A DNA stretch of 64,000 bases from an uncultured Carboxylicivirga sp. Its GTDB lineage: Bacteria; Bacteroidota; Bacteroidia; Bacteroidales; Marinilabiliaceae. Each line of letters begins with the position of its first letter. Positions within the stretch are counted from its first letter, which is position 1. Of the stretch, positions 8,342 through 20,784 are shown piece by piece. The stretch covers positions 434,001-498,000 of the forward strand of contig CANNEA010000004.1 of NCBI GenBank assembly GCA_947503525.1. The letters are read 5' to 3'. Under the pieces are notes generated by a model that saw only the letters and a list, made by a program, of their open reading frames with translations, made no database searches and was not told the origin of the DNA. The position numbers were made by a program, and so were the translations under genes.

Positions 8342-8833
8342 TTAATAAGTGTCTTCTAACTGCTGCAAAGCATCTAAGACATTGTAAAACGTTACACTCC
8401 TTAATATTTTACCATCTTCCAATAAATAGTTGGTATTAGCCCATATTGTTATCGGGCCTTGACCATTTCGATAAGTAATCTCTAACTCCGCCCAATTAGC
8501 AACCCAGTTACCTTTAGATAAACCAGAAGTAAATGTTATTGGAGCAATTCTGGAAGTATTATACTTTAACTTCGAATACAAATGGGTCATATTACTTTCG
8601 AAAGCCAGAAGTGCAACCTCCTTATTTATCGAATCAGAATGAGAAGGCCCATACCCCATATAGTTATCGTCCAATAAGCTTGCCATAGTTGCAATATCAT
8701 TATTTTCTACTGATTTAATGTATTTCTCAACAACGGCGACATTCTTTTTCCCAATTTCCACAGAGCTATTGTCAACATTACAGGATATTGCCAATAGCAT
8801 TAAAACACTTAAACTAAAGCCGATAATTTTCAT
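8342..8833 (-). CDS. lipoprotein with NTF2/SnoaL-like domain
   Basis: 163 residues. A short signal peptide ends in a lipobox (LAISC, Cys18), predicting a lipid-anchored envelope protein. The remainder has the length and pattern of an NTF2-like (SnoaL/DUF4440-type) cone: a helix VVEKYIKSVENNDIATMASL, then a loop with DDNYMGYGPSH and strands such as GNWVANWAELEITY. These folds bind small hydrophobic ligands or act as small enzymes; no catalytic residues can be assigned here. The gene is single, with three copies of a 12-base tandem repeat lying just upstream of its start. Confidence 0.7.
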   Translation of the reverse strand: MKIIGFSLSVLMLLAISCNVDNSSVEIGKKNVAVVEKYIKSVENNDIATMASLLDDNYMGYGPSHSDSINKEVALLAFESNMTHLYSKLKYNTSRIAPITFTSGLSKGNWVANWAELEITYRNGQGPITIWANTNYLLEDGKILRSVTFYNVLDALQQLEDTY

Positions 8834-9040: not shown

Positions 9041-9817
9041 TTAGTCTTTAGCTTCAACCGGCAGCAAAAAATCCTTACTTGTTAAATTATTTCGACTTAA
9101 AATCTCTGTGACATGCATTTCTGTTGTTTTTTTATTTTCGTAATCCTCATTTATAATATGCATGGCTTGTATCTTATTCTCAGTCTCATTAACACTCTGA
9201 TAGTTGTCTAATTTTACCAAACGTGTGTTTTTACCTCCTGCATTAAACACTTTTATCTGAATGATTTTAAATGAACTTTTCTCAATCCACAATTGCCCTC
9301 TTGATTCAGCCTTTGCAGTTTCAGATGTAACCTTAATCAGGTAGCAGGTTCGATTATTAATTACCTCCTCCTTAAGAAGGGCATAGTTTAAGCTCTCAGA
9401 ATCCTCGGAATTAAAATTGGACATGCTAAATTCAGATCCAATCATTTTCATATTTGCCGAGGACGCCTTCATTTTGCGTGTCTTACCATTCGAGGGCGTA
9501 TATACTTCAATAATTCCTTTATCCTCATCAGAACCGGTAATGACAACCGTAGTACCTTTAGCTCGTTCTGGTTTCATCCAGCTAACTTTTGTCTTATCGA
9601 TGTCATCAATTTTAGCCATTAAAACACGAATGGTCTTCTCCTTCACCCTACCTTTCTTATCTGTTGTGGTGATATCCATTCCCATTTCGAAATTTTTACT
9701 CAGAACCTGATCTTTAGCCTTTTCAAAAATTTCTTGAGCACTTTTTTGTCCATGAACAAATTCACTAGTCAGAAATTGGAATAGGATGAAAGCGCAAATT
9801 ATCTTTATATAGTACAT
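9041..9817 (-). CDS. LolA-like outer-membrane lipoprotein-sorting protein (MMPL partner)
   Basis: 258 residues with a signal peptide (cleavage near FVHGQ, residue 23). The body shows the half-barrel pattern of the LolA/LolB superfamily, COG2834 type: a strand with FEMGMDITTTDKKGRVKEKT, the loop SWMKPERAKGTTVVI, YTPSNGKTRKMKAS, then RGQLWIEKSSFKIIQIKVF. In many bacteria such proteins are encoded next to RND/MMPL exporters and are thought to accept a lipid or lipoprotein from the exporter and carry it across the periplasm. Here the gene starts 4 bases after the MMPL gene, so translation is coupled. It is the last gene of a three-gene leftward operon. The cargo is unknown. Confidence 0.85.
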   Translation of the reverse strand: MYYIKIICAFILFQFLTSEFVHGQKSAQEIFEKAKDQVLSKNFEMGMDITTTDKKGRVKEKTIRVLMAKIDDIDKTKVSWMKPERAKGTTVVITGSDEDKGIIEVYTPSNGKTRKMKASSANMKMIGSEFSMSNFNSEDSESLNYALLKEEVINNRTCYLIKVTSETAKAESRGQLWIEKSSFKIIQIKVFNAGGKNTRLVKLDNYQSVNETENKIQAMHIINEDYENKKTTEMHVTEILSRNNLTSKDFLLPVEAKD

Positions 9818-9821
9818 ATTT

Positions 9822-12071
9822 TTACTTTTTATTTAAAAACTTAGGCTTAACCAATAATACAATTGAAGGAACAAGCATTAACGCACTTACTAAACAAGTA
9901 CTAATAGAAACTACTACCAAGGCTCCAAAAAATCGCAATGGCGCAAAATTTGATAGGGTCAGTGCAAGGAAACCAATAACAACAGACAATGCGTTAAAAA
10001 TAATTCCACGCCCTGTGGTTGATAATGTTTTCTCTACAGCTGCTTTATGTCCATCTCCTTTGGCCAATTCCTTTTTAAAACGCCAGATAAAATGTATGGT
10101 GTAATCAATACCAACACCAATCATAATTGATGATAATAATGCCGTTGCAATATCAAGAGCTATTCCAAGAAAACCCATTAATCCAAATAAAACCAAAATA
10201 GCAAGTGCCAGCGGAACGGCAGAAATCACACCAGCCTTTAACGATCTGAATATCAAACTTAATAATACAAATACGACAATAATCGCAAATATTAATGACT
10301 TAATTTGCCCACTAATAACCATATCTGCTAACTGCATGGATGTAAGTGCAGGTCCTGCAACAAATTGTACATCTTCATCATTTGAGGTTAAAGTTTGCAG
10401 TTTCTTAAGTACGCGTTTTACTTCCCTGTTACTTGCATCTTTTAAACTGACTATTATTCGAGAACTTTCATAATTATAATCGATAAATTGATAGATGGCC
10501 TCATCGTTACCTGACATAGAAAAAACTTCAATCAACTGATAAGCTTCATCTGCTGATGAAGGCAACTGCCCATACTCGGGTTCTTCCTGATTATAAAACC
10601 CTTTACTCAACTCCTTAAACAATGCAACTGGCGAACTTACTGTTCCAACTGTAGGATCATTTAATATCTCTTGCTCATAGGCCTCCATTCGCTTTAATAA
10701 TTCTGGAGAAAGCACATCACCTTCAAAAAACACAGATAGAAATTGTGTGCCACCGTATTTTTCATTGATCAATTTTATGGAGCGGCTCACCTCTGATTTT
10801 CCTAAAAAATAACTTTCAACATTAGTATCAACACGCAAAAACACTAAACCAACCAATCCGAATAAACTAATAATTATTGCTATAAGCAGTACTCTTTTGG
10901 GATAAGTAATTACAGTTTTACTGAACCTCTTCAGAATTTGATCAGGTGAGATAATAATTGATTTTTTAGAATGTGTCTGAATGACCTTTGGTTTGAAATA
11001 GGATAATAATGCCGGTAGAAACAGTATACTCAAAACAAGCGCGAATGCAATACCAATAGCAGCCAAGACGCCTAATTGGGCAGCAGGAATCATTGTGTGA
11101 GTTAACAATCCTAATATGCCGCCAATTGTGGTTAAACCTGTTATGATAATCGGACGCTTTAGATCTTCATATATTTTACGGCATATATCTGCCATACTAT
11201 AAGACATTTCCAAATTGGCCAATTCCTGATAATGCGCTATCATGTGAATGCCGTAATCATTGGCAATAGCTATTAGCATAATTGGCAACAGAATGGTTAT
11301 AAGTGACATTTTCCATCCTAACAGTGCCATAACACCAAAGGATAAAATCATACTTATCATGACAATGATAAATGGAAAAAACACACCCTTCCATTCTTTA
11401 AATGACGCAAATAGCATTAATACCATTAATACCAAGGCCATCGGTAATAAATAGATCAGATCCTTATTTATATTCCCCGAAATGGAATAACGGACAAAGG
11501 GCATTCCGCCAATCAAAACCTCTTCATCGCCTTTATGTTGGGCAATGATTTCTTTAATACTTTCAATTAAAAGTTTATCAGAGTACTTTGGTTCTTTCAT
11601 CAACATTATGGCAACTATTGAATAGTCATCCACAAAAAAACGTGAAGCCATTTTATTGTCAGCTATTTTTGATTTCAAAAGCTGATACTCTGCTTGATTA
11701 GACGGAATGGATTCAAGCAAGGGCTCCATAACCATTAATCCATCCTCTGTAAATATATCCTGTACATCAAATGGTGAAAGACAACTTTGCAATCCTTCCA
11801 ACTCTACTAATTCTTCTGTTATTAGTTTAACGCGATTAAGGGTTTTAAAATTGACAACATCCTCCGTTTGTAATAGCACCATAATCATTTCATTCCCACC
11901 GAATATACTATCCAATTCTTTGAGGTACTTTTTATTTTCAATATGATCAGGTATGTATTTATCCAAGTCAGGATTCACCTCAATTCGAGGCAATAAACTC
12001 AGTGCACCTATGGTCAAACCAATGGTAATCAAAATAATGATGAGTCGATATTTAAGTATCCAGTGTTTCAA
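9822..12071 (-). CDS. RND superfamily exporter, MMPL family
   Basis: 749 residues with the RND/MMPL layout: membrane segment 1 at residues 8-26, a periplasmic domain to about 195, membrane helices 2-6 (about 200-350), a linker and helix 7 near 390, a second periplasmic domain to about 580, and helices 8-12 (about 590-740). The proton-relay signatures appear in both halves as IANDYGIHM and GVGIDYTIHF. MMPL proteins export lipids and other hydrophobic molecules (mycobacterial lipids, hopanoids). The start appears to be TTG at 12071, since the next Met is past residue 60 and would delete helix 1; it overlaps the upstream stop as TTGA, implying translational coupling. Its partner LolA-like gene follows after 4 bases. 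Confidence 0.9.
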   Translation of the reverse strand: MKHWILKYRLIIILITIGLTIGALSLLPRIEVNPDLDKYIPDHIENKKYLKELDSIFGGNEMIMVLLQTEDVVNFKTLNRVKLITEELVELEGLQSCLSPFDVQDIFTEDGLMVMEPLLESIPSNQAEYQLLKSKIADNKMASRFFVDDYSIVAIMLMKEPKYSDKLLIESIKEIIAQHKGDEEVLIGGMPFVRYSISGNINKDLIYLLPMALVLMVLMLFASFKEWKGVFFPFIIVMISMILSFGVMALLGWKMSLITILLPIMLIAIANDYGIHMIAHYQELANLEMSYSMADICRKIYEDLKRPIIITGLTTIGGILGLLTHTMIPAAQLGVLAAIGIAFALVLSILFLPALLSYFKPKVIQTHSKKSIIISPDQILKRFSKTVITYPKRVLLIAIIISLFGLVGLVFLRVDTNVESYFLGKSEVSRSIKLINEKYGGTQFLSVFFEGDVLSPELLKRMEAYEQEILNDPTVGTVSSPVALFKELSKGFYNQEEPEYGQLPSSADEAYQLIEVFSMSGNDEAIYQFIDYNYESSRIIVSLKDASNREVKRVLKKLQTLTSNDEDVQFVAGPALTSMQLADMVISGQIKSLIFAIIVVFVLLSLIFRSLKAGVISAVPLALAILVLFGLMGFLGIALDIATALLSSIMIGVGIDYTIHFIWRFKKELAKGDGHKAAVEKTLSTTGRGIIFNALSVVIGFLALTLSNFAPLRFFGALVVVSISTCLVSALMLVPSIVLLVKPKFLNKK

Positions 12072-12967
12072 TTGCTTTGATTCTTCGGATTAAACAAATT
12101 AAGTTTGTATGGAAAAAGCCCGGGCACCTTATTGGCATAGTTTTCATAACCTTCTCTTCGACTTAAATGTCTTTTTTTCATCATTGGAATACTAATAAAA
12201 CTAAAAAGCAGAACCATTAAAATAAAACCAAAGGATGAAAACAAAATATGTTCGGTCATTCCTGAAGCGGGAATAAATAAAAACAGGCCTAACCAGAATA
12301 AGATCTCACCGAAGTAGTTAGGATGCCGCACAATTCCCCATAAGCCTGTGTTGAGATACTGGCCTTTTTTTGCTTTCTTCTTAAATCGGATCAGTTGTTC
12401 ATCAGAAATCCATTCAATCAACACAGCTAAGATCGTTACTAGCACAGCAAGCACTTCTGGGAAATGCAAAGGTTCCGAACTTGGTATCAGAAAGAATAAA
12501 GGAATACATCCCATAAATACCAGAATGGTTGGGAACATGTGTATTCCCAGAAAGCTGACTAACCAATAGAATGCACCAGTATCCTTAGATAATTTGCTAT
12601 ATCTCCAATCCTGATGCTTAAAACCTGCCCATCCTCTTGCCCAATTTGCTGTTAAACGCATTGACCAAGAGAGGATAAGAAAGGCTAAAACAAGCTGTCT
12701 GGCCAGATTACCTTCAGGGTTTACAATTATTAAATAGGTAACTATAAGAAACGGAATTACGCTCCAATATGGATCATATACGCTTGAATTTTTTGTGATA
12801 TAACTAAACGCAAAAACATATATAGTTGCCACTACGTCCACGAATAAAACCATGAACATCTCATTATCAAAATCCAATAAGAAGGAGCTTGCAATAGCTA
12901 TAGCTACAGAAACTAAATAAATTAAACCAATTTGGATTAAAGCTAATGTTTTATTTGACTTATCCAT
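12068..12967 (-). CDS. DUF1295 / steroid 5-alpha-reductase-like membrane protein
   Basis: 299 residues from the ATG at 12967; a TTG six codons upstream is less likely. About seven hydrophobic segments span residues 10-275. The C-terminal signature GLWGIVRHPNYFGEILFWLG followed by RREGYENYANKVPGLFP is the NADPH-binding region shared by DUF1295 proteins, steroid 5-alpha reductases, ergosterol C14/C24 reductases and isoprenylcysteine methyltransferases. An internal YDPYWSVIP and SWSMRLTANWARG are typical of DUF1295. The reaction may be reduction of a C=C bond in a lipid, but family members are diverse. First gene of the operon with MMPL and LolA-like genes, which points to a lipid substrate. Divergent from the sulfotransferase gene, with about 256 bases between the starts. 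Confidence 0.82.
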   Translation of the reverse strand: MDKSNKTLALIQIGLIYLVSVAIAIASSFLLDFDNEMFMVLFVDVVATIYVFAFSYITKNSSVYDPYWSVIPFLIVTYLIIVNPEGNLARQLVLAFLILSWSMRLTANWARGWAGFKHQDWRYSKLSKDTGAFYWLVSFLGIHMFPTILVFMGCIPLFFLIPSSEPLHFPEVLAVLVTILAVLIEWISDEQLIRFKKKAKKGQYLNTGLWGIVRHPNYFGEILFWLGLFLFIPASGMTEHILFSSFGFILMVLLFSFISIPMMKKRHLSRREGYENYANKVPGLFPYKLNLFNPKNQSN

Positions 12968-13223
12968 TTTAATTTTTGGGGTCAATAGTCTATCTTTAAA
13001 TTGTGTCTATTACAAATATAGTTAATACTATAACATTATCTTGTTTGAATATGTTAGATATCAGCACGATTAATATTATTGAAAGAATTCCTTCATATAG
13101 CATTAAGATTATCGTTTAAAATCTTATTTGCCAACTTAATAGAGGATTGACTATTCGAATTAAAGATAAAGAATGATTGAATTTGTTACTGATAATCATT
13201 CCATAAAATACAATTGATAAAAA

Positions 13224-14345
13224 ATGAAAGACTTTAAAATACCACCTATATCAACACTTGCCGGATCAACTTTGGGTAATTACTTTAAAATTATTAGGAA
13301 GCAACATATCGCACCTAAATTCTATTTAAAGATAGTGCTTACAACACTTATAATTCTTATAGCCACTCCTTTTCATTGGTGGGAGAAGTTAATTTTCAAT
13401 CGAAAGGTCTCGAAATTATCATTAAAAAAACAACCTCTGTTTATTCTAGGTCACTGGAGGAGTGGAACCACATTATTACATAATGTATTATGTAAGGACC
13501 CTAATGCCAGCTATATGACAACCTACCACTCATTATTTCCAAATAATATGTCAAGTAAGTGGCTATTTAAAACTTTTATGAGGATCAACATGCCTGATAA
13601 AAGACCTTCTGATAATGTTCAACTAAACATTAATTTTCCCCAGGAAGATGAGTTTGCCTTAAGTAATTGCCAGGCCAATGCCTATTATAATTTCTTCTAT
13701 TTTCCGAAGGAGTATAAAACTTTCTATAACAGAGCAATCCGTCATGAAGGCTTAAGTGAAACAGAAAAAAACATCTGGTTCTCATCCTATGATCAACTGA
13801 TTAAAAAAGCTTTGTTAAACATTAAAGGAGATAGAGTCATTATTAAAAATCCGGTTAATACAGCGCGTATAAATCAGCTCATTAAGTTATATCCTAATGC
13901 TAAATTCCTATACATCTATCGCAATCCAATTACCGTTTTTAATTCAACCCAAAAATTCTTTCATAAGCTGTTTCCAACACTATGGCTTCACGAAGTTGAC
14001 AAATCCTTTATTGATCGTTTAATATTTGATGTATACAAAATGCTAATGGACGGGTATGAAGAGCAAAAATCAATGATTCCGAAAGAAAATCTTATGGAAT
14101 TAAGATTTGAAGATTTTGAGCAAAATCCGGTAATTGAAATGGAGAAAATATATGAACAACTATTAAACGAAAGCTTTAACGAGGTTAAACCGTATTTTAC
14201 TGAGTACTTTGACTCACTTAAAGGTTACAAAAAGAACAAATACGAAGTTGAAAAATCATTAATAGATACGATTTATAAACATTGGGGTTCGTACATGAAA
14301 AAATATAATTACGATATTCCCGTTGATATAAATATACGCGAATAA
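13224..14345 (+). CDS. sulfotransferase (PAPS-dependent, Sulfotransfer_3-like)
   Basis: 373 residues. The 5'-phosphosulfate loop is GHWRSGTTLL (residues 76-85) and the 3'-phosphate-binding segment is FLYIYRNPITVFNST (228-242, Arg233 and Ser241 as the expected PAPS ligands). A hydrophobic stretch at 36-50 may be a membrane anchor, so the enzyme may act at the inner membrane. Family knowledge: such enzymes move sulfate from PAPS to hydroxyl or amine groups of sterols, lipids, sugars or protein tyrosine; the acceptor cannot be read from motifs. A START-domain gene follows 36 bases later and the divergent operon encodes a lipid exporter, so a lipid or steroid-like acceptor is the best inference. 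Confidence 0.85.
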   Translation: MKDFKIPPISTLAGSTLGNYFKIIRKQHIAPKFYLKIVLTTLIILIATPFHWWEKLIFNRKVSKLSLKKQPLFILGHWRSGTTLLHNVLCKDPNASYMTTYHSLFPNNMSSKWLFKTFMRINMPDKRPSDNVQLNINFPQEDEFALSNCQANAYYNFFYFPKEYKTFYNRAIRHEGLSETEKNIWFSSYDQLIKKALLNIKGDRVIIKNPVNTARINQLIKLYPNAKFLYIYRNPITVFNSTQKFFHKLFPTLWLHEVDKSFIDRLIFDVYKMLMDGYEEQKSMIPKENLMELRFEDFEQNPVIEMEKIYEQLLNESFNEVKPYFTEYFDSLKGYKKNKYEVEKSLIDTIYKHWGSYMKKYNYDIPVDINIRE

Positions 14346-14381
14346 TACGGTAGATAATCAGTAAACGTTAGATCTACAATA

Positions 14382-14987
14382 ATGAATAAACTGATATATA
14401 TAGGCACATTATTACTCGCTTTCCAGGCTATTTCAGATTGGAAAATAAGAAAAGAACATTCTGGCATTACAATTTCTACGCGCAAAATTGGCACATCTGA
14501 TTTTCAAGAATTTAAAGGAATAACAGTTATCGAAGACAGTGAGCTAACTGAAGTTTTAAGTGTTGTATTGGATGTTGACAACTATAAACATCTTTTTCCT
14601 GATTGTATAGAAGCCCATATTATAAAAGAGGACGGTGCATACTATGACATTCATTATTTTGCCGTCAAAGCACCGTGGCCGGTTCAGGATAGAGATGCCG
14701 TTTATGAACAAAAAACAACATTCTCATCTAACAATGACACTGCAGTAGTAAAGCTTTTGCCTGTACCGGACGAATACCCTATACAAGATGATAGATACCG
14801 AATGCGAGAAGGTACAGGATTTTGGAAATTATACAGGAATGCCAAAAACAATTCGGTTACTGTTATTTATCAATTTCATGGAGCGCCCGGAGGTAATATA
14901 CCAGCCTGGTTAGCAAATCAATCGGTGACTGCTCATCCGTTCAAAACATTAAATAACTTAAGAGAGATTATAGACAATCAAAAATAG
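14382..14987 (+). CDS. START-domain lipid-binding protein
   Basis: 201 residues with a short hydrophobic leader (residues 1-18). The segment VLDVDNYKHLFPDCIEAHII and then VKAPWPVQDRDAVYEQ are characteristic of bacterial START domains, as is the late segment GAPGGNIPAWLANQSV before the C-terminal helix. START domains enclose a single lipid or sterol in a helix-grip fold. With a signal sequence this one would act in the periplasm or envelope. It is 36 bases downstream of the sulfotransferase gene and so probably in the same operon; the pairing suggests a shuttle or sensor for the same hydrophobic substrate. Assignment to the fold is strong, the ligand is unknown. Confidence 0.88.
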   Translation: MNKLIYIGTLLLAFQAISDWKIRKEHSGITISTRKIGTSDFQEFKGITVIEDSELTEVLSVVLDVDNYKHLFPDCIEAHIIKEDGAYYDIHYFAVKAPWPVQDRDAVYEQKTTFSSNNDTAVVKLLPVPDEYPIQDDRYRMREGTGFWKLYRNAKNNSVTVIYQFHGAPGGNIPAWLANQSVTAHPFKTLNNLREIIDNQK

Positions 14988-15051
14988 TTAAATGTGTAAT
15001 AAAATGTTATTTTTATAAATCAGTATATTAATCATTCTAAAAACTACCATT

Positions 15052-15654
15052 ATGAAAACTACAAGTTTTAAACTAATTGCTTTTCTTTTAATTGTCGCAA
15101 TTTTCGCAGGAGGCTGTGGAGATGATGATGATCCCCAAGATATTCCTTCTGTTTTTATAGGAGACTATGTAATTACAAAAGCCAAAACAACTGAAGCCAT
15201 TACTTTAACCACTAATGAGATTGGGGAAATACCAATACCTGCAGAAACGGATATCACCGAAATGATACATGCCGCTCTACTTAGTCAGGTTACTTGTACT
15301 CCTGAAAAGACTTTTATTGAATTAAGGGCTGATAATTCGATGTACTTTAGTTGTGATGGTGCTGATGCTCTAAACGCCGGTACCTGGGAAGAAGTTAGTG
15401 CTACAGAATTAAAGTTAAATATGAATAGTACAGCATTACCAACTTCACCTTCAGGCGCAACTTTAACTATTTCGAATATTGTGATGGCTGGTAATATTAT
15501 GTCGGGAACGACTAGTGTTCTGTTACCAAAGGACATGCTACAAGGTATTTTAACTGCCATGACAGCTCAGGCTCCGGGTGGACCATATACCTTGGTTGAT
15601 GCAACTCCAGCCGCCCTTCCTGTTGCTTTTGAAATTCAAATTACAAAACAATAA
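15052..15654 (+). CDS. lipoprotein with lipocalin-like pattern
   Basis: 200 residues. The signal peptide ends in a lipobox (IFAGGC, Cys22) followed by GDDDDP, an acidic linker usual in Bacteroidota lipoproteins that stay in the envelope. The mature part begins FIGDYVITKAKTTEAITL and continues with short strands (NSMYFSC, NAGTWEEVSATELKLNM, MSGTTSVLLP), resembling the small lipocalin-like lipoproteins of this phylum. Such folds bind hydrophobic ligands. It is 64 bases after the START gene on the same strand and followed by a strong terminator, so it likely closes the sulfotransferase operon. The family call is tentative. Confidence 0.7.
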   Translation: MKTTSFKLIAFLLIVAIFAGGCGDDDDPQDIPSVFIGDYVITKAKTTEAITLTTNEIGEIPIPAETDITEMIHAALLSQVTCTPEKTFIELRADNSMYFSCDGADALNAGTWEEVSATELKLNMNSTALPTSPSGATLTISNIVMAGNIMSGTTSVLLPKDMLQGILTAMTAQAPGGPYTLVDATPAALPVAFEIQITKQ

Positions 15655-15676
15655 GAATACATATAACACATTTGTT

Positions 15677-15711
15677 AAAACCACTATTACAAAATAATAG
15701 TGGTTTTTTTT
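15677..15711 (+). terminator. intrinsic terminator of the sulfotransferase operon
   Basis: A perfect 13-bp stem (15677-15689 with 15695-15707), 5-base loop, then a T-run. It lies 23 bases past the stop of the 15052-15654 gene. The arms begin with four A residues, so it could also work for the converging TonB receptor gene. Confidence 0.9.
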
Positions 15712-15865
15712 AGCCTTAAGTTTATCGATTCTGATCGAAGTAACCACCTTTGTATTATACAGACCATTATTAGATCTAGAGATTAAAATCTGTACCCCGA
15801 ATCTATTGCTCTCTTTCCAAATCAAAAGAAATCTCCTTTATAGTACGCTGGCATTTTTCATGGTA

Positions 15866-18697
15866 TTATTTTCGCTTTCGCTCGATATAACCCAAGATAT
15901 CATCATACTGAAGACTAATATAATATAAGCCTCCGATTTGAGCACTTCCGAAACTGGTTGTATAGTAATTATTAAAAATATTGGAACCTCCCAGTTTAAC
16001 CACTGTTTTTATTTTTCGTATTTTATAAGCTACATGTGCATCCAAAGTACTGAATGCAGGTATTTCAGCCGCACCAAATGCCGCTTCCCACAAAAAGTTA
16101 TTTTGCCAATGAAAGTTAACGTTAAACCCAAGATTTGGTAATATGGCATGATGACCTAAGGATACATTAGCCCTGTAATCAGGTGTATTAAACCGAGCTT
16201 CCACACCAGGTGAATTTATTTCATCAACCAATTTGTTATAGGCAATATTACTTCTTAATAAAATCCCCCTTGGTAAACGATAATCCAAGCCTAACGCCCA
16301 TCCCAGGGAAGAAACATCCTGATCTGAGGTGAAATAGGTTTGGTAATATAAATCCTGAGCCGTTCCTGCATCTTCGGCTAACTGTGCCAATAACTGAACG
16401 GCCTCAAAATCTTTGTAATGATTATAAAATGCATAAGCATCAACAAATAGTCTCTTACCCAAGAACAAACCTTTATAGCCAATCTCAGTAGAGGCTACTT
16501 TTTCCGGTTTTAATTCTGGCAAATCCATTGGTCCATTTTCTGTGACAGGTTTATCCGTCACCGGATTTCGACCAGATAATGGATAAAGCGGAAGAGTATA
16601 AAAATTGTACTTTTCTTTAACCTGAGGCATCCCTCCGATGGTTCTGAAAACCCCTGCGTTTATATCCACCCATTGATTTGAAATCGAAGGAAAGCGATAG
16701 GCCGTTTGAAACGTTCCACGTATACTATGCTCCTTATTTTCATCAAGAAAATAAATCAATGAGAAACGCGGTGTGTATTGGGCTTTAAAGTATTGATTCT
16801 TATCATAACGAAATGCTCCGGTTATTCGAAGGCGATCCTGAACGAAGTTTTTATTGATTTGAACGAATGAACCAAATTGGTTGATTTTTATTGGGTTTCC
16901 GGGTTCATCAATAAAAATTGTACCATTACTATCAACAGAATAAAAACGGTTTGAAATACCAATTTGCATTTCCATAAAATGTATAAGATGGGTAAAGTTA
17001 TACATCCCTTCAACTTGAAACATTTTACTCTGATCAAATACCATTGCTCCACCATCTCTCAATGAGGTTGATGAAATTCCATCTAACATTTGATTAAATT
17101 CCGGGCTCCCTCCAACTGGAATTGCAGGTTTTGAATTATCAAAAACACGGCCGGTTACCGGATCTCTATTGTTTGATACCAGGCGTGCAAATTGATGTGC
17201 TTTATCCATATCATCATCAACCAGGGCAGTTTGCGTATAAGCCGATAGGTAATCCGCAAACCAATCCTCAGAACCTTTCCATTCTTCGTTCATTAATAAT
17301 CCGGCACCACCAATATCATAAGAGTTACCTGAATCTTCCGCTACTCCCCAAGCCCTAACAAAAAAGTTAGGATCATTAATTTCCAGCTTACCTGATAAAA
17401 TACTAAAATCACGTGCTGCAAAACGATTTTGTGCAGTATAAACACTTGAACCCATTGCGTAATTTCCCTGAGCAATTAATTCCATTCTATCTGTAAGAAA
17501 ATAGTTGATTGATCCTCCCAAGCGCATATTTTGCGTTTTATTATCGGCCAAATCACGCTCTATCCATCCTGTTCGGGTAACCAACTGATCAGGAAAATAT
17601 TTAATAGCCTGATTATATAAGTCATCATATTCCGGAGTTCCCGGAAGAATTCCTTGAGATTCAGCAATTCCATCAATTACCTGCGGACCAACATCCTGTA
17701 AATTGACAGAAACCAATGATTCATCTCCATATGTATTTACCCCATCGTATCCCGGGTTACTTTGTCTGTTTAATGATGGATTATTTAAATCGGTTCTATC
17801 TCTAAGATCTGATGCTTGCCAATCTGTTGCTTCCAAATATCCACCTGTTATTTTAAAGGCTAAGCGATTATTAAATGCTTTGGCATACCTGAAATTCACA
17901 TCGTACATAGGTGTTGGGCTATCCAAAGAACTGGAATTCACATTCATCATTCCCGTTTGCACCGACAAAGTCAACCCTTGATATTTATATGGATCTTTAC
18001 TATTCATTAATAAGGTTCCATTCATCCCGCCCGGTCCATATAAGGCAGATGATGCACCAACTACCATTTCTAAACTCTCAATATCTATTTGCGATACACC
18101 AAAAATATTACCCGCAGCAAAACTAAGGCCCGGTGCAAGATTTTCCACACCATCAATAATTTGATTCATGCGGTAATTGGTATAATCATTAAAGCCACGG
18201 GTATTAGGTAACTGAAACGTTAAACCATGAACATTCATATCCACCCCTTTTAGCTGATACAAACCATCATAGAAATTGGCAGATGAAACCAGGTTAATAT
18301 CTCTTAAATTCATCTTTTCAATACTTACAGGAGCTCGTAATATACTTTCCTCTACCCTACTGGCAGACACCACAATTTCCTGACCAAGTAACATCTGTTC
18401 CTTTAATTCAATAGTAATAAACTCTGATGTGTTTTTTACTTCAATTTCCTGAGGCTCATACCCCACAAATGAAACCGTTAAAAACAAAGGTGGCGTTGAT
18501 CTGGTTTTCAGTTCAAATGTTCCATCATAACCGGTTATTGTACCGTATACCTTATTTTTAGCAATGATATGCACCCCTACAAGAGACTCTCCTGTACGAC
18601 TATCTTTAACCAATCCTTTAATTAGTACATCTTGCGCAAAAGAATGAAAGGATGACGATAAAATCAATATGAGAAATAGAATTCTAATTGTTTTCAT
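15866..18697 (-). CDS. TonB-dependent outer-membrane receptor with carboxypeptidase-like domain
   Basis: 943 residues. Signal peptide to about residue 21 (FHSFAQ), then a carboxypeptidase-D-regulatory-like domain (VLIKGLVKDSRTGESLVGVH, about 23-105), a plug domain with VVSASRVEES near 110 and SLEMVVGASSALYGPGGMNG near 210-230, then a 22-strand barrel to the C-terminus. It imports a large or scarce nutrient with energy from TonB. There is no SusD partner next to it, so a SusCD glycan system is unlikely. It lies between the START/sulfotransferase operon and the SDR/reductase pair, so it may take up, or sense, the same hydrophobic compound; that is inference. Long loops rich in Asp, Asn and Gly are typical of the family. 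Confidence 0.93.
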   Translation of the reverse strand: MKTIRILFLILILSSSFHSFAQDVLIKGLVKDSRTGESLVGVHIIAKNKVYGTITGYDGTFELKTRSTPPLFLTVSFVGYEPQEIEVKNTSEFITIELKEQMLLGQEIVVSASRVEESILRAPVSIEKMNLRDINLVSSANFYDGLYQLKGVDMNVHGLTFQLPNTRGFNDYTNYRMNQIIDGVENLAPGLSFAAGNIFGVSQIDIESLEMVVGASSALYGPGGMNGTLLMNSKDPYKYQGLTLSVQTGMMNVNSSSLDSPTPMYDVNFRYAKAFNNRLAFKITGGYLEATDWQASDLRDRTDLNNPSLNRQSNPGYDGVNTYGDESLVSVNLQDVGPQVIDGIAESQGILPGTPEYDDLYNQAIKYFPDQLVTRTGWIERDLADNKTQNMRLGGSINYFLTDRMELIAQGNYAMGSSVYTAQNRFAARDFSILSGKLEINDPNFFVRAWGVAEDSGNSYDIGGAGLLMNEEWKGSEDWFADYLSAYTQTALVDDDMDKAHQFARLVSNNRDPVTGRVFDNSKPAIPVGGSPEFNQMLDGISSTSLRDGGAMVFDQSKMFQVEGMYNFTHLIHFMEMQIGISNRFYSVDSNGTIFIDEPGNPIKINQFGSFVQINKNFVQDRLRITGAFRYDKNQYFKAQYTPRFSLIYFLDENKEHSIRGTFQTAYRFPSISNQWVDINAGVFRTIGGMPQVKEKYNFYTLPLYPLSGRNPVTDKPVTENGPMDLPELKPEKVASTEIGYKGLFLGKRLFVDAYAFYNHYKDFEAVQLLAQLAEDAGTAQDLYYQTYFTSDQDVSSLGWALGLDYRLPRGILLRSNIAYNKLVDEINSPGVEARFNTPDYRANVSLGHHAILPNLGFNVNFHWQNNFLWEAAFGAAEIPAFSTLDAHVAYKIRKIKTVVKLGGSNIFNNYYTTSFGSAQIGGLYYISLQYDDILGYIERKRK

Positions 18698-19043
18698 AGT
18701 GTTTAGGTAGATTGTAATGACATAGAGTTTTAAACTCGAACAACTAAATTCAAGCCTTTTTTACTTGCGTTTGATTATTCATTTAGCTTTGCACTGGTAT
18801 CATTAATTCGATATGAATCAATGTTTATCATATACTAATTTGAAAGTAGTGTTTTTTTTTCAATTCTCTATTCGATACAATGACTTTTCATATTACACTT
18901 TGTAGGTATTATCTTCAATTTTCTATTAATCGTAAAATAAATTCATCTGCAAACTGATTAATTCGTATCGGTGAAGAGCAGTTGATAGTTTGTGAATTAC
19001 TGAAAAAGCTTAGCTTTATAATTTAAACCTATAGTCTTTGTTA
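18698..19043. other. divergent intergenic region
   Basis: 346 bases between the starts of the TonB receptor gene and the SDR gene, which point away from each other. It must hold both promoters. It is very A+T-rich with several T-runs, but no convincing TAnnTTTG element, repeat or RNA structure was seen. Confidence 0.5.
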
Positions 19044-20024
19044 ATGAATATAGCCATCACGGGTGCTACCGGACATATAGGCAACTGTTTAGTTAAAACC
19101 TTACTCAAACAGGGTCATAACATCAATGTATTGGTACGCAAACCTGATCCCATATTAGATGAACTTGCTGTTAATTATATATATGGTGATATTTTAAAAC
19201 CAGAGACCTTAGTTGCCTTATGTTACAATTCAGACCTTGTATTTCATCTGGCTGCTCATATATCCATCGATAATAAACTTGCGGACCAGATTTATAAAAC
19301 CAATGTAATCGGCACGAAAAACCTACTGGATGCCAGCCTGAAAGCAAAAGTTAAAAAATTCATCCATTTTAGCAGTATTAGTGCTTTTGAAGCGCGTCCG
19401 GTTGATCAAATCTTAGATGAAGAAAGGCCATTAGTTGAGGTAAACTATGATCTATATGGGCACTCCAAAGCTGAAAGTGAAAAACGAGTATTGGAAGCTG
19501 TTAGCAAAGGCTTAGATGCTGTCATACTTAGTCCAACGGGTGTATTCGGCCCCAACGATTACAAAAGTTCATATTTGGGTCAGGCTATAATGCAAATGTA
19601 TTTGAATAGCTACCCATTGCTTGTCTCGGGAGGCTTTAACTGGGTTGATGTAAGAGATGTTGTATTGGGTGCGATAAATGCCATAAAAAAGGGAAGAAAA
19701 GGACATAAATACATCTTATCCGGTCGATACTTATCATTAAAAGAAGCATCTCAAATATTAGGTGCAGTTACTAAACGAAAAACACCTTCTTGGATTGTTC
19801 CAATTTCATTGGTAAAGCTCTTTTGTCCATTGATTGAATTCTATGCTAAAATAACCGGGACAAGGCCGCTGTTTACGAGACAGTCTTTAAATATATTGAG
19901 TCAAAGCGCAAGAACGATATCGACAGATAAAGCGCAAAATGAGCTTGGATTTAAGGTCAGACCTTTTGAAGATTCGTTAAGAGATACCATTGATTGGTAT
20001 AAAACAAATAACAAGCTAAAATAA
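19044..20024 (+). CDS. NAD(P)-dependent epimerase / 3-beta-hydroxysteroid dehydrogenase-like extended SDR
   Basis: 326 residues from the ATG at 19044; a TTG two codons earlier is possible. The Rossmann motif GATGHIG (Gly7, Gly10, Gly13) and the catalytic YGHSK (Tyr138, Lys142) with FSSISAF (Ser110-112) define an extended short-chain dehydrogenase. The mid-section (LSPTGVFGPNDYKSSYLGQA and NWVDVRDVVLGAI) resembles the 3-beta-HSD/dihydroflavonol-reductase branch, which acts on sterols, terpenoids and polyketide-like alcohols, more than nucleotide-sugar epimerases. The reductase-like gene starts 11 bases after it, so the two are almost certainly co-translated and act in sequence. The real substrate is not known. 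Confidence 0.85.
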   Translation: MNIAITGATGHIGNCLVKTLLKQGHNINVLVRKPDPILDELAVNYIYGDILKPETLVALCYNSDLVFHLAAHISIDNKLADQIYKTNVIGTKNLLDASLKAKVKKFIHFSSISAFEARPVDQILDEERPLVEVNYDLYGHSKAESEKRVLEAVSKGLDAVILSPTGVFGPNDYKSSYLGQAIMQMYLNSYPLLVSGGFNWVDVRDVVLGAINAIKKGRKGHKYILSGRYLSLKEASQILGAVTKRKTPSWIVPISLVKLFCPLIEFYAKITGTRPLFTRQSLNILSQSARTISTDKAQNELGFKVRPFEDSLRDTIDWYKTNNKLK

Positions 20025-20034
20025 CACTATAACT

Positions 20035-20784
20035 ATGATAGCTTTTAATCAACTTTGCTGGATATGGATTGCAATAGCACTAGTTCTTTTTCCAGTACTG
20101 CTCAGAGTTTCTCAGCCTTATGGAAAGCACACCAAAAAAACATGGGGGCCATTAATTAACAATAATCTTGGATGGTTCATAATGGAATTACCTGCTTTAA
20201 TCGTTTTCTTGTACTTTTTGTTCTCTAATCCTGAACTTGAGAACAAAGTGATATATATAGCAGGCAGTTTGTGGGCATTGCATTATGTAAACAGAGCAAT
20301 TATTTTTCCTTTAAGAATAAGAACTAAAGGAAAAAAAATACCTATTGTAATTGTTGTATTTGCTATTTTATTCAACACGGTAAACGGATTTTTAAATGGA
20401 TATGGTTTAGCCCACTTTAGTACCAATATTGAATTGAACAATGTCACTTCACTTAGATTCATTCTTGGATCGTGCATCTTCATTATTGGCTTTATAATAA
20501 ACCAATATCACGATCATTTATTAATAAAACTAAGACGTATTGGCAGTGGTTACAAAATCCCATATGGCGGTTTATTCCGCTTTGTATCCTGCCCCAATTT
20601 TCTTGGTGAAATTATATCCTGGTTGGGTTTTTTAATCGTTGCGTTCAACCTTCCGGCTCTTTCCTTCTTAGTCTGGACCATGGTCAACCTTATTCCACGT
20701 GCACTTGACCATCATAGTTGGTATAATAAAGAATTCAGGGACTATCCCAAAGAACGCAAAGCCATTTTCCCTTATCTATTATAA
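20035..20784 (+). CDS. 3-oxo-5-alpha-steroid 4-dehydrogenase-like membrane reductase
   Basis: 249 residues with about six membrane segments. The C-terminal region IPYGGLFRFVSCPNFLGEII, then WLGFLIVAFNLPALSFLVWT and WYNKEFRDYPKERKAIFPYL, follows the steroid 5-alpha-reductase C-terminal pattern (the G-x-[FW] ... PN-[YF]-[FL]-GE core and the terminal P-x-x-R-x-x-[IL]-x-P-[FY]). The length of about 250 residues equals that of eukaryotic SRD5A enzymes. Such proteins reduce a C=C bond conjugated to a ketone, using NADPH. It is paired with the 3-beta-HSD-like gene 11 bases upstream: oxidation of a 3-hydroxyl by one enzyme and reduction of the enone by the other is a plausible two-step sequence. A hairpin follows the stop. 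Confidence 0.85.
   Translation: MIAFNQLCWIWIAIALVLFPVLLRVSQPYGKHTKKTWGPLINNNLGWFIMELPALIVFLYFLFSNPELENKVIYIAGSLWALHYVNRAIIFPLRIRTKGKKIPIVIVVFAILFNTVNGFLNGYGLAHFSTNIELNNVTSLRFILGSCIFIIGFIINQYHDHLLIKLRRIGSGYKIPYGGLFRFVSCPNFLGEIISWLGFLIVAFNLPALSFLVWTMVNLIPRALDHHSWYNKEFRDYPKERKAIFPYLL

Follow-up and report, generated by a model that had tools for sequence, protein, structure and literature searches.

Introduction

Steroid reduction and cholesterol sulfation by bacteria are both known from gut Bacteroidota. Gut Bacteroidetes convert bile acids with a 5-alpha-reductase (5AR), a 5-beta-reductase (5BR) and a 3-beta-hydroxysteroid dehydrogenase (3-beta-HSDH) (PMC9645264), and Bacteroides thetaiotaomicron makes cholesterol sulfate by BT_0416 of the BT_0411-BT_0416 locus, where its neighbours are putative genes for 3'-phosphoadenosine-5'-phosphosulfate (PAPS) (PMC9417993). 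BstA, BstB and BstC make up the sterol transport of Methylococcus (PMC10942540), and the reductase PbSRD5A reduces progesterone (PMC7815742). Here we describe an island of nine genes in a 64,000-nt stretch of DNA (the window) from an uncultured Carboxylicivirga species. It brings together a sulfotransferase (SULT), a START-domain lipid carrier, a lipocalin-like lipoprotein (LIPO), a TonB-dependent receptor, an MMPL-family pump, a LolA-like carrier, a DUF1295 protein, a homologue of the SRD5A steroid reductases and a short-chain dehydrogenase/reductase (SDR). This nine-gene set is not accidental: all nine families stand within 15 kb of one another in a Prolixibacteraceae genome (locus L098), and a core of six recurs in five further genomes.

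The first-pass annotation of this DNA knew of no described locus with this exact make-up, and among the papers that our own searches of an open-access library listed, judged by titles and the starts of abstracts, there is likewise none on the gene set. What appears from the sequences to be new is that one conserved unit joins steroid-type modification, by reduction and sulfonation, to candidate transport genes, while the enzyme families are known ones and their chemistry has gut precedents.

Results

Comparison with described systems

Throughout, G000 is the window's own genome and the other L and G numbers are compared loci and genomes. From gene content we infer that two of these genomes, G127 and G278, carry the published 5AR/5BR/3-beta-HSDH cluster. 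This cluster and the island share an SRD5A-family reductase and an SDR, L098 has a flavoenzyme as well, and a Met at the position of human Gln56 is common to both. Unlike the island, the clusters of G127 and G278 have no SULT, START, MMPL, LolA or DUF1295 match in 19.5 kb, and in both genomes the reductase cluster and the SULT lie on different contigs. The SRD5A of G127 is 32% identical to that of the window, and the gut SDR is classical (by Pfam, in G127) whereas the island has an extended SDR. The gut cluster also puts SRD5A next to an Old Yellow Enzyme-type flavoenzyme and an SDR; the window island has its SRD5A-SDR pair without a flavoenzyme, and L098 has all three, though not contiguously.

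The BT_0411-BT_0416 locus resembles the island in having a Bacteroidota SULT, and PAPS supply genes are found nearby in L098 but not in the window. That locus differs in consisting, as published, of PAPS genes and the SULT only. For a wider comparison we took the best 80 loci with relatives of the SULT (more exist) from a contig database of 84,980 species, using an alignment of five START-linked SULTs as the query, and built an 81-row SULT tree with IQ-TREE. In this tree, which does not contain BT_0416 itself, loci of the BT_0416-type layout group apart in a SULT clade of their own, at 35-40% identity to the window protein. An APS (adenosine-5'-phosphosulfate) kinase without START occurs at 23 of the 80 loci, and 22 of these 23 are in the separate clade. 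Membership of the island in this clade was rejected on that distribution and on its lack of adjacent PAPS genes.

As in Bst sterol transport and HpnN hopanoid transport, the island has an MMPL-family pump beside an SdmB-like SDR and lipid carriers. Unlike them, the window MMPL reaches only 58 bits against BstA (cut-off 1400) and 137 against HpnN (cut-off 752). The Bst comparison fails in further respects, as no cyclase was found in G000 and the carriers of the island are START and LolA-like proteins; BstB and BstC were not searched for. Finally, the window SRD5A agrees with PbSRD5A (PDB 7c83) and human SRD5A2 (7bw1) in its family by sequence, its catalytic Glu and Tyr and its NADPH residues, and differs from both in the Gln of the Q-E-Y motif, which in the window is Met.

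The nine genes

The nine open reading frames (ORFs) lie side by side at 9041-20784, each where the first-pass annotation had placed it, and the families it named agree with Pfam and NCBIfam (Table 1). Two of its names need some care. The protein called 3-beta-HSD-like is an SDR, but it scores best as HpnA, and Pfam places Epimerase just above 3Beta_HSD. The name lipocalin-like is plausible from a weak fold match and not firm, the protein having no Pfam family at E 1e-3.

Table 1. Island genes, their positions in the window and the evidence for their families
Feature	Position	Strand	Evidence
LolA_like (PF17131) secreted carrier, MMPL partner	9041..9817	-	Pfam 75 bits; hydrophobic N-terminal stretch
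MMPL/HAE3-type resistance-nodulation-division (RND) inner-membrane transporter	9822..12071	-	Pfam MMPL 151 bits; TIGR00921 278 bits, under cut-off 352
DUF1295 membrane reductase-like protein	12068..12985	-	Pfam 151 bits; 4-bp overlap with MMPL
Sulfotransfer_3 sulfotransferase, presumed PAPS-dependent	13224..14345	+	Pfam 111 bits
START-domain lipid carrier, N-terminal hydrophobic stretch, presumed periplasmic	14382..14987	+	Polyketide_cyc 26.3 bits (cut-off 23.4) and predicted fold
Lipocalin-like lipoprotein, Cys-Gly-Asp4 following lipobox, likely surface-exposed	15052..15654	+	Predicted fold, sequence signal
TonB-dependent receptor, by score not SusC-type	15866..18697	-	Pfam CarboxypepD_reg and Plug
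Extended SDR, HpnA/SdmB/3-beta-HSD-like	19038..20024	+	Epimerase 106 bits, 3Beta_HSD 98 bits
SRD5A-type 3-oxo-steroid 4-dehydrogenase homologue (Met50-Glu51, Tyr84)	20035..20784	+	Steroid_dh PF02544 152 bits, cut-off 22.6

Judged by spacing there are four transcription units. DUF1295, MMPL and LolA form a minus-strand unit in which the 4-bp overlap is followed by a 4-base gap, SULT-START-LIPO is a plus-strand unit with gaps of 36 and 64 bases, SDR-SRD5A is another with a 10-base gap, and the TonB receptor is a minus-strand unit of its own. The genome is 6.56 Mb, with the window on contig C4. A foreign base composition of the island is unsupported, its GC content being 35.0% vs 36.2% for the window. 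Outside the island, 207 bases downstream of the LolA gene, there is a lipoprotein-like ORF at 8342-8833 on the minus strand with a sub-threshold SnoaL-like (NTF2-like) match; it is in no neighbour cluster common to three or more loci.

Recurrence of the gene set

We defined the core as SULT, START, LolA, MMPL, SRD5A and SDR. There are seven core loci: the window, L098, L133 (Bizionia arctica), L166 (Xanthomarina spongicola), L138, L140 and L157 (genome G193), of which L098 and the last three are from metagenome-assembled genomes (MAGs). Most carriers of the island are MAGs, so absences are weak evidence. In L133, L138, L140, L157 and L166 the core takes the form of SULT-START facing LolA-MMPL-SRD5A-SDR, and in L157 it shares 10 kb with a TonB receptor unlike that of the window. 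Shorter versions, SULT-START-LolA-MMPL, are found in L123, L125, L127 and L130, with L125 and L127 reaching the contig end soon after. L128 has the same four genes and, next to MMPL, a stretch of 29 residues that matches the end of SRD5A (L128:6961-7047), apparently the remnant of a decayed core copy.

Gene presence at the 80 loci was scored by bit-score thresholds chosen for this analysis, and the Fisher p values given here overstate independence because the loci are related to one another. The counts were 21 for START, 11 each for MMPL and LolA, 9 for DUF1295, 8 for the TonB receptor, 7 for SRD5A, 6 for SDR and 5 for LIPO. MMPL and LolA each occur at 11/21 START loci vs 0/59 loci without START (p 3e-8), SRD5A at 7/21, including the L128 remnant, vs 0/59 (4e-5) and SDR at 6/21 vs 0/59 (2e-4). 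The lipoprotein is at 5/21 vs 0/59, to which ORF clustering adds L108 and L111, both without START, and DUF1295 is at 5/21 vs 4/59 (0.048). In this neighbourhood search, of the kind that the first-pass annotation had proposed, MMPL, LolA, SRD5A and SDR are confined to the START-bearing SULT loci, beyond what chance would give. A scan of the contig database with the START sequence on its own found no relatives. Among the SULT relatives, L149, L153, L160 and L162 are in MAGs labelled Lokiarchaeota and Woesearchaeota, which could be transfer or binning error.

The gene set was also followed in three genome samples. In 295 genomes of the order (match cut-offs E 1e-3 for START and 1e-20 for SULT), START was matched in 57, SULT in 55 and both in 15; many of the contigs are short. 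SRD5A is rare, with a profile match in 8 of 395 genomes from the phylum, the window's own included; only the window copy is in an island setting and two are in gut-type clusters. Nearer to the window we compared 40 genomes, the window's own and 39 relatives, of which 13 are congeners. DUF1295 and SRD5A have no match in any of the 13 congeners, six have a SULT homologue that is merely 36-40% identical, and in the four examined widely (G001, G002, G008 and G012) no other island gene was found near it. The island is therefore accessory, and its absence from the congeners suggests gain or multiple loss. G023, from the same family, keeps the SULT-START-LIPO triad at 57, 42 and 30% identity. It also has two SRD5A copies (C74, locus L032, and C66, locus L033), 53-56% identical to the window protein by tblastn and with no other island genes nearby. 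L101, which is G023, and L136, which is G089, come from MAGs titled Chlorobiota that were placed in the window's order, so that the public labels look wrong.

Could these genes be accidental neighbours, that is, three unrelated small operons (DUF1295-MMPL-LolA, SULT-START-LIPO and SDR-SRD5A) and a TonB receptor? The four transcription units and the separation of the modules in G023 would fit this, as would the order sample, where START and SULT are adjacent on the same strand in merely 4 of the 15 genomes that have both (G000, G074, G193 and G296). Against it, the modules are together in six other genomes, in differing gene order and with SULTs of two clades, and we regard accident as extremely improbable. 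The first-pass annotation had held that independently scattered orthologues would speak for accident. Here the outcome is mixed, with scatter in G023 and in five of the eight SRD5As of the phylum sample and with the genes together in L098 and five core genomes. We consider it highly probable that the island is one functional unit.

Modular make-up

The unit appears to be built from modules. Over the seven core loci (21 non-independent pairs), identities co-vary closely within SULT-START (rho 0.86), MMPL-LolA (0.89) and SRD5A-SDR (0.94) and more weakly between modules (0.30-0.82). The relations of MMPL, LolA and SRD5A were judged from pairwise identity. The MMPL of the window shares only 27-30% identity with those of the remaining core loci and its LolA 19-21%, whereas between the MMPL of L098 and the Flavobacteriales type identity reaches 53-57%. 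On these figures the window pair seems to be a substitute taken from a different lineage, which points to assembly that happened repeatedly or to replacement in place. In the SULT tree, the window and L098 share one supported clade and the L133/L157 group is in another, with many SULTs without partner genes around both, and the label 'has MMPL' needs at least three changes on starred branches. Independent gains, many losses and in-place replacement of the SULT or the pump are each possible. The same functions stay together under any of them, which is the best argument we have for one pathway. The first-pass annotation had proposed a coherent pathway to modify one lipid-like compound, by oxidising, reducing and sulfating it, and to export or import it; retention of the set in distant genomes with differing SULT and MMPL/LolA versions supports this, and the independent scatter in some genomes counts against it.

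DUF1295 is upstream of SULT on the opposite strand in L098, L106, L107, L110, L112, L113 and L116 as well. Next to DUF1295-SULT in L106, L110 and L113 there are instead genes coding for an outer-membrane efflux protein (OEP), a membrane-fusion protein (MFP) and an AcrB-type pump, with the AcrB-type gene of L110 on the far side of the SULT; Pfam was run on the L106 proteins only. The layout of L106 and L113 is as if a tripartite pump had replaced MMPL-LolA. Steroid sulfation in animals is often detoxifying, and together with these pump genes this would fit a role in which toxic steroids, bile-salt-like or terpenoid compounds are reduced, sulfated and effluxed, with no part in import. In the nine-gene form, however, the TonB receptor, the surface-type lipoprotein and the secreted carrier suggest uptake, and within the nine genes, which are all that was looked at for this, there is no regulator gene. 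Detoxification therefore seems to us improbable.

The reductases and the SDR

The possible steroid link raised by the first-pass annotation is seen in SRD5A, for which the nearest solved structures are steroid 5-alpha-reductases. With a profile of the core SRD5As, the PDB search gave PbSRD5A (7c83) an E value of 9e-73, human SRD5A2 (7bw1) one of 1e-52 and an enoyl-CoA reductase one of 8e-22. Mapping by eye shows that all seven core SRD5As keep the counterparts of human E57 and Y91 and of eight NADPH-binding residues. The flavoenzyme of L098 offers a second line of evidence, being 64-65% identical to those of the SRD5A-flavoenzyme-SDR clusters of G127 and G278; the classical SDR of L098 is not close to theirs (25% identity). 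The link thus gains from family identity and from the tie to gut-type clusters, and reaches the level of the family rather than that of the substrate. The extended SDR of the island has Ser112, Tyr140 and Lys144 in every one of the seven core loci. DUF1295 found no match in the PDB.

The window has a flavoprotein of its own, of the Old Yellow Enzyme type, which straddles its left end about 9 kb from the island (positions 1-264; whole gene L204:9081-10265, minus strand) and is 40% identical to the flavoenzyme of the L098 island. Similar flavoproteins are in the genomes of Xanthomarina (45%) and L130 (41%), on contigs other than that of the island.

Sulfotransferase and PAPS supply

The window SULT is 61% identical to that of L098, and a PDB search with it gave weak matches only. 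A GHWRSGTT stretch, which we take to be the phosphosulfate loop, is invariant in the alignment of five START-linked SULTs. Between LIPO and the TonB receptor, L098 carries a flavoenzyme, a classical SDR, an APS kinase (253 bits) and CysQ (271 bits), the last two above cut-off. The making of PAPS and the disposal of PAP (3'-phosphoadenosine-5'-phosphate) inside the L098 island argue that the SULT really sulfonates. L109, from the same SULT clade as the window, also has an APS kinase beside its SULT. In the window there is no match to APS kinase or CysN, and the APS kinase of G000 is on another contig, C5.

The START protein, the lipoprotein and the receptor

Structure prediction, which the first-pass annotation had proposed for the START and SDR pockets, confirmed the START assignment at the level of the fold, giving a START fold at a pLDDT (predicted local distance difference test) of 92.8 with a Xanthomonas START protein (PDB 3qsz) as its nearest match, at TM-scores of 0.83 for the query (TMq) and 0.92 for the target (TMt). 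The predicted fold of the lipoprotein (pLDDT 82) matches Bacteroides lipocalin-like proteins weakly (best E 2e-4, TMq 0.38). By a crude test, which is not a signal-peptide predictor, a hydrophobic N-terminal stretch is present in 16/16 START, 12/12 LolA and 8/8 lipoprotein rows. The window lipoprotein continues Cys-Gly-Asp-Asp-Asp-Asp, near the SDDDD export signal that has been proposed for B. fragilis (PMC5080379).

With the SusC/RagA model, whose cut-off is 368 bits, the receptor scores 90, and neither of the ORFs neighbouring it has a Pfam match to SusD. This bears out its description as a TonB receptor without SusD, and classical SusCD uptake was rejected on these two results. The receptor is 68% identical to that of L098 and 46-47% to those of L106, L108 and L111. 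The lipoprotein family adjoins the receptor family in L106, L108 and L111 as it does in the window, which suggests that the lipoprotein and the receptor are a pair; in L098 four genes stand between them.

Substrate

Of 13 genomes searched for the PF13243 squalene/oxidosqualene cyclase, 10 gave no match (G000, G193, G023, G074 and those of L098, L133, L166, L138, L140 and L130; completeness is not given for the locus-linked genomes). The three with matches are G322 and G321, to which L110 and L106 belong, and G296, where the match is weak. On this basis an endogenous hopanoid or sterol was rejected as the general substrate. The cyclase was not found in any of the seven core-carrier genomes, so that core carriers probably lack the known route to hopanoids and sterols, and this favours an external polycyclic substrate. 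Judging by the sequences, a steroid or sterol is the moderately probable substrate. That the island as a whole remodels and moves a polycyclic lipid, probably a steroid or sterol, which the cell does not make, is a reading that just tips towards probable, its substrate, product and transport direction being our suggestions.

Several observations weigh against this reading. On the chemistry, human Gln56 of the Q-E-Y motif is Met in all seven core SRD5As, and the Q56A/L change abolishes the activity of human SRD5A2 (PMC7815742); the SRD5As from the gut-type clusters of G127 and G278 have Met at this position too. The SDR scores highest with HpnA, yet its 223 bits fall short of the cut-off of 368 (for SdmB, 183 bits and a cut-off of 600), and in Pfam Epimerase comes ahead of 3Beta_HSD. 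In sequence, START resembles StAR less than it does carriers of phosphatidylcholine and ceramide, so by itself it is no argument for a sterol. The APS kinase PF01583 was not found in G318, G319 or G320. On the gene set, L123 and L130 have no SRD5A or SDR up to 10 kb downstream of SULT despite their SULT-START-LolA-MMPL, and G023 has the triad, the two SRD5A copies and a DUF1295 (28% identical) on separate contigs. Five of the eight SRD5As in the phylum sample (L190 and L193-L196) are without other core genes in 19.5 kb, where the sole island-type matches are weak TonB-receptor ones, in three. Of the six other core loci, L098 alone has a receptor like that of the window nearby; that of L157 is just 24% identical, and the left flanks of L138 and L140 (1.3 and 0.5 kb) are too short to judge. 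Among the same six, the lipoprotein is present in L098 only, and so is DUF1295 of the window's type, of which L133 and L166 have a 29-31% relative.

The strongest competitor is an endogenous envelope lipid (carotenoid, polyprenoid, quinone-derived or acyl) that is reduced and sulfated and then placed in the outer membrane by MMPL/LolA, the receptor being unrelated. Exporting a cell's own lipids is typical of MMPL and LolA-like proteins, and the START resemblance to phospholipid and ceramide carriers would suit this, with an insect carotenoid-binding protein lower in the fold list. No receptor was seen near L133, L166, L138 or L140, though the left flank available for L138 and L140 is short. 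A squalene/phytoene synthase (SQS_PSY) is present in six of the nine genomes tested, including G000, but was not found in G319, G023 or the genome of L098, which has all nine families; these are MAGs and perhaps incomplete. A carotenoid may therefore be the substrate in the window but is unlikely as the common one. The SRD5A, for its part, matches steroid reductases far better than it does the enoyl-CoA reductase, the PDB matches including no polyprenol reductase, and the L098 flavoenzyme points to steroids. Taken together we consider an endogenous lipid unlikely.

Discussion

A pathway for an external steroid or sterol may be outlined from the families and their predicted locations. The TonB receptor and the surface lipoprotein would capture the lipid at the outer membrane, and the periplasmic START protein would ferry it. 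In or at the inner membrane, the SDR would oxidise or reduce a 3-hydroxy/3-keto group, and SRD5A, whose catalytic residues were checked, would reduce a conjugated double bond, with DUF1295 as a possible second membrane reductase. The cytosolic SULT could then add sulfate from PAPS, the genes for which are inside the island in L098. The sulfated product, now amphipathic, would be passed on by the MMPL pump and the LolA-like carrier to the outer membrane or out of the cell. The enzymatic steps of this scheme are drawn at the level of the family.

A more far-reaching proposal is that environmental Bacteroidota that do not make sterols have repeatedly assembled, from interchangeable modules, a line of uptake, 5-alpha-reduction, sulfonation and export that makes sulfated 5-alpha products from surrounding eukaryotic sterols or steroids. 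We put this forward as tentative, and doubtful in its full form.

The presence of the island in two named Flavobacteriaceae strains as well, Bizionia arctica CGMCC 1.12751 (L133) and Xanthomarina spongicola DSM 22637 (L166), makes bacterial sterol movement and sulfation directly testable. The findings also offer candidate substrates for DUF1295 and for periplasmic START proteins. If the steroid or sterol reading is true, they would name a possible bacterial source of sterol sulfates, compounds that regulate cell death in a marine diatom (PMC5670183), and the sulfated 5-alpha products, should they be made, would be related to this bioactive class.

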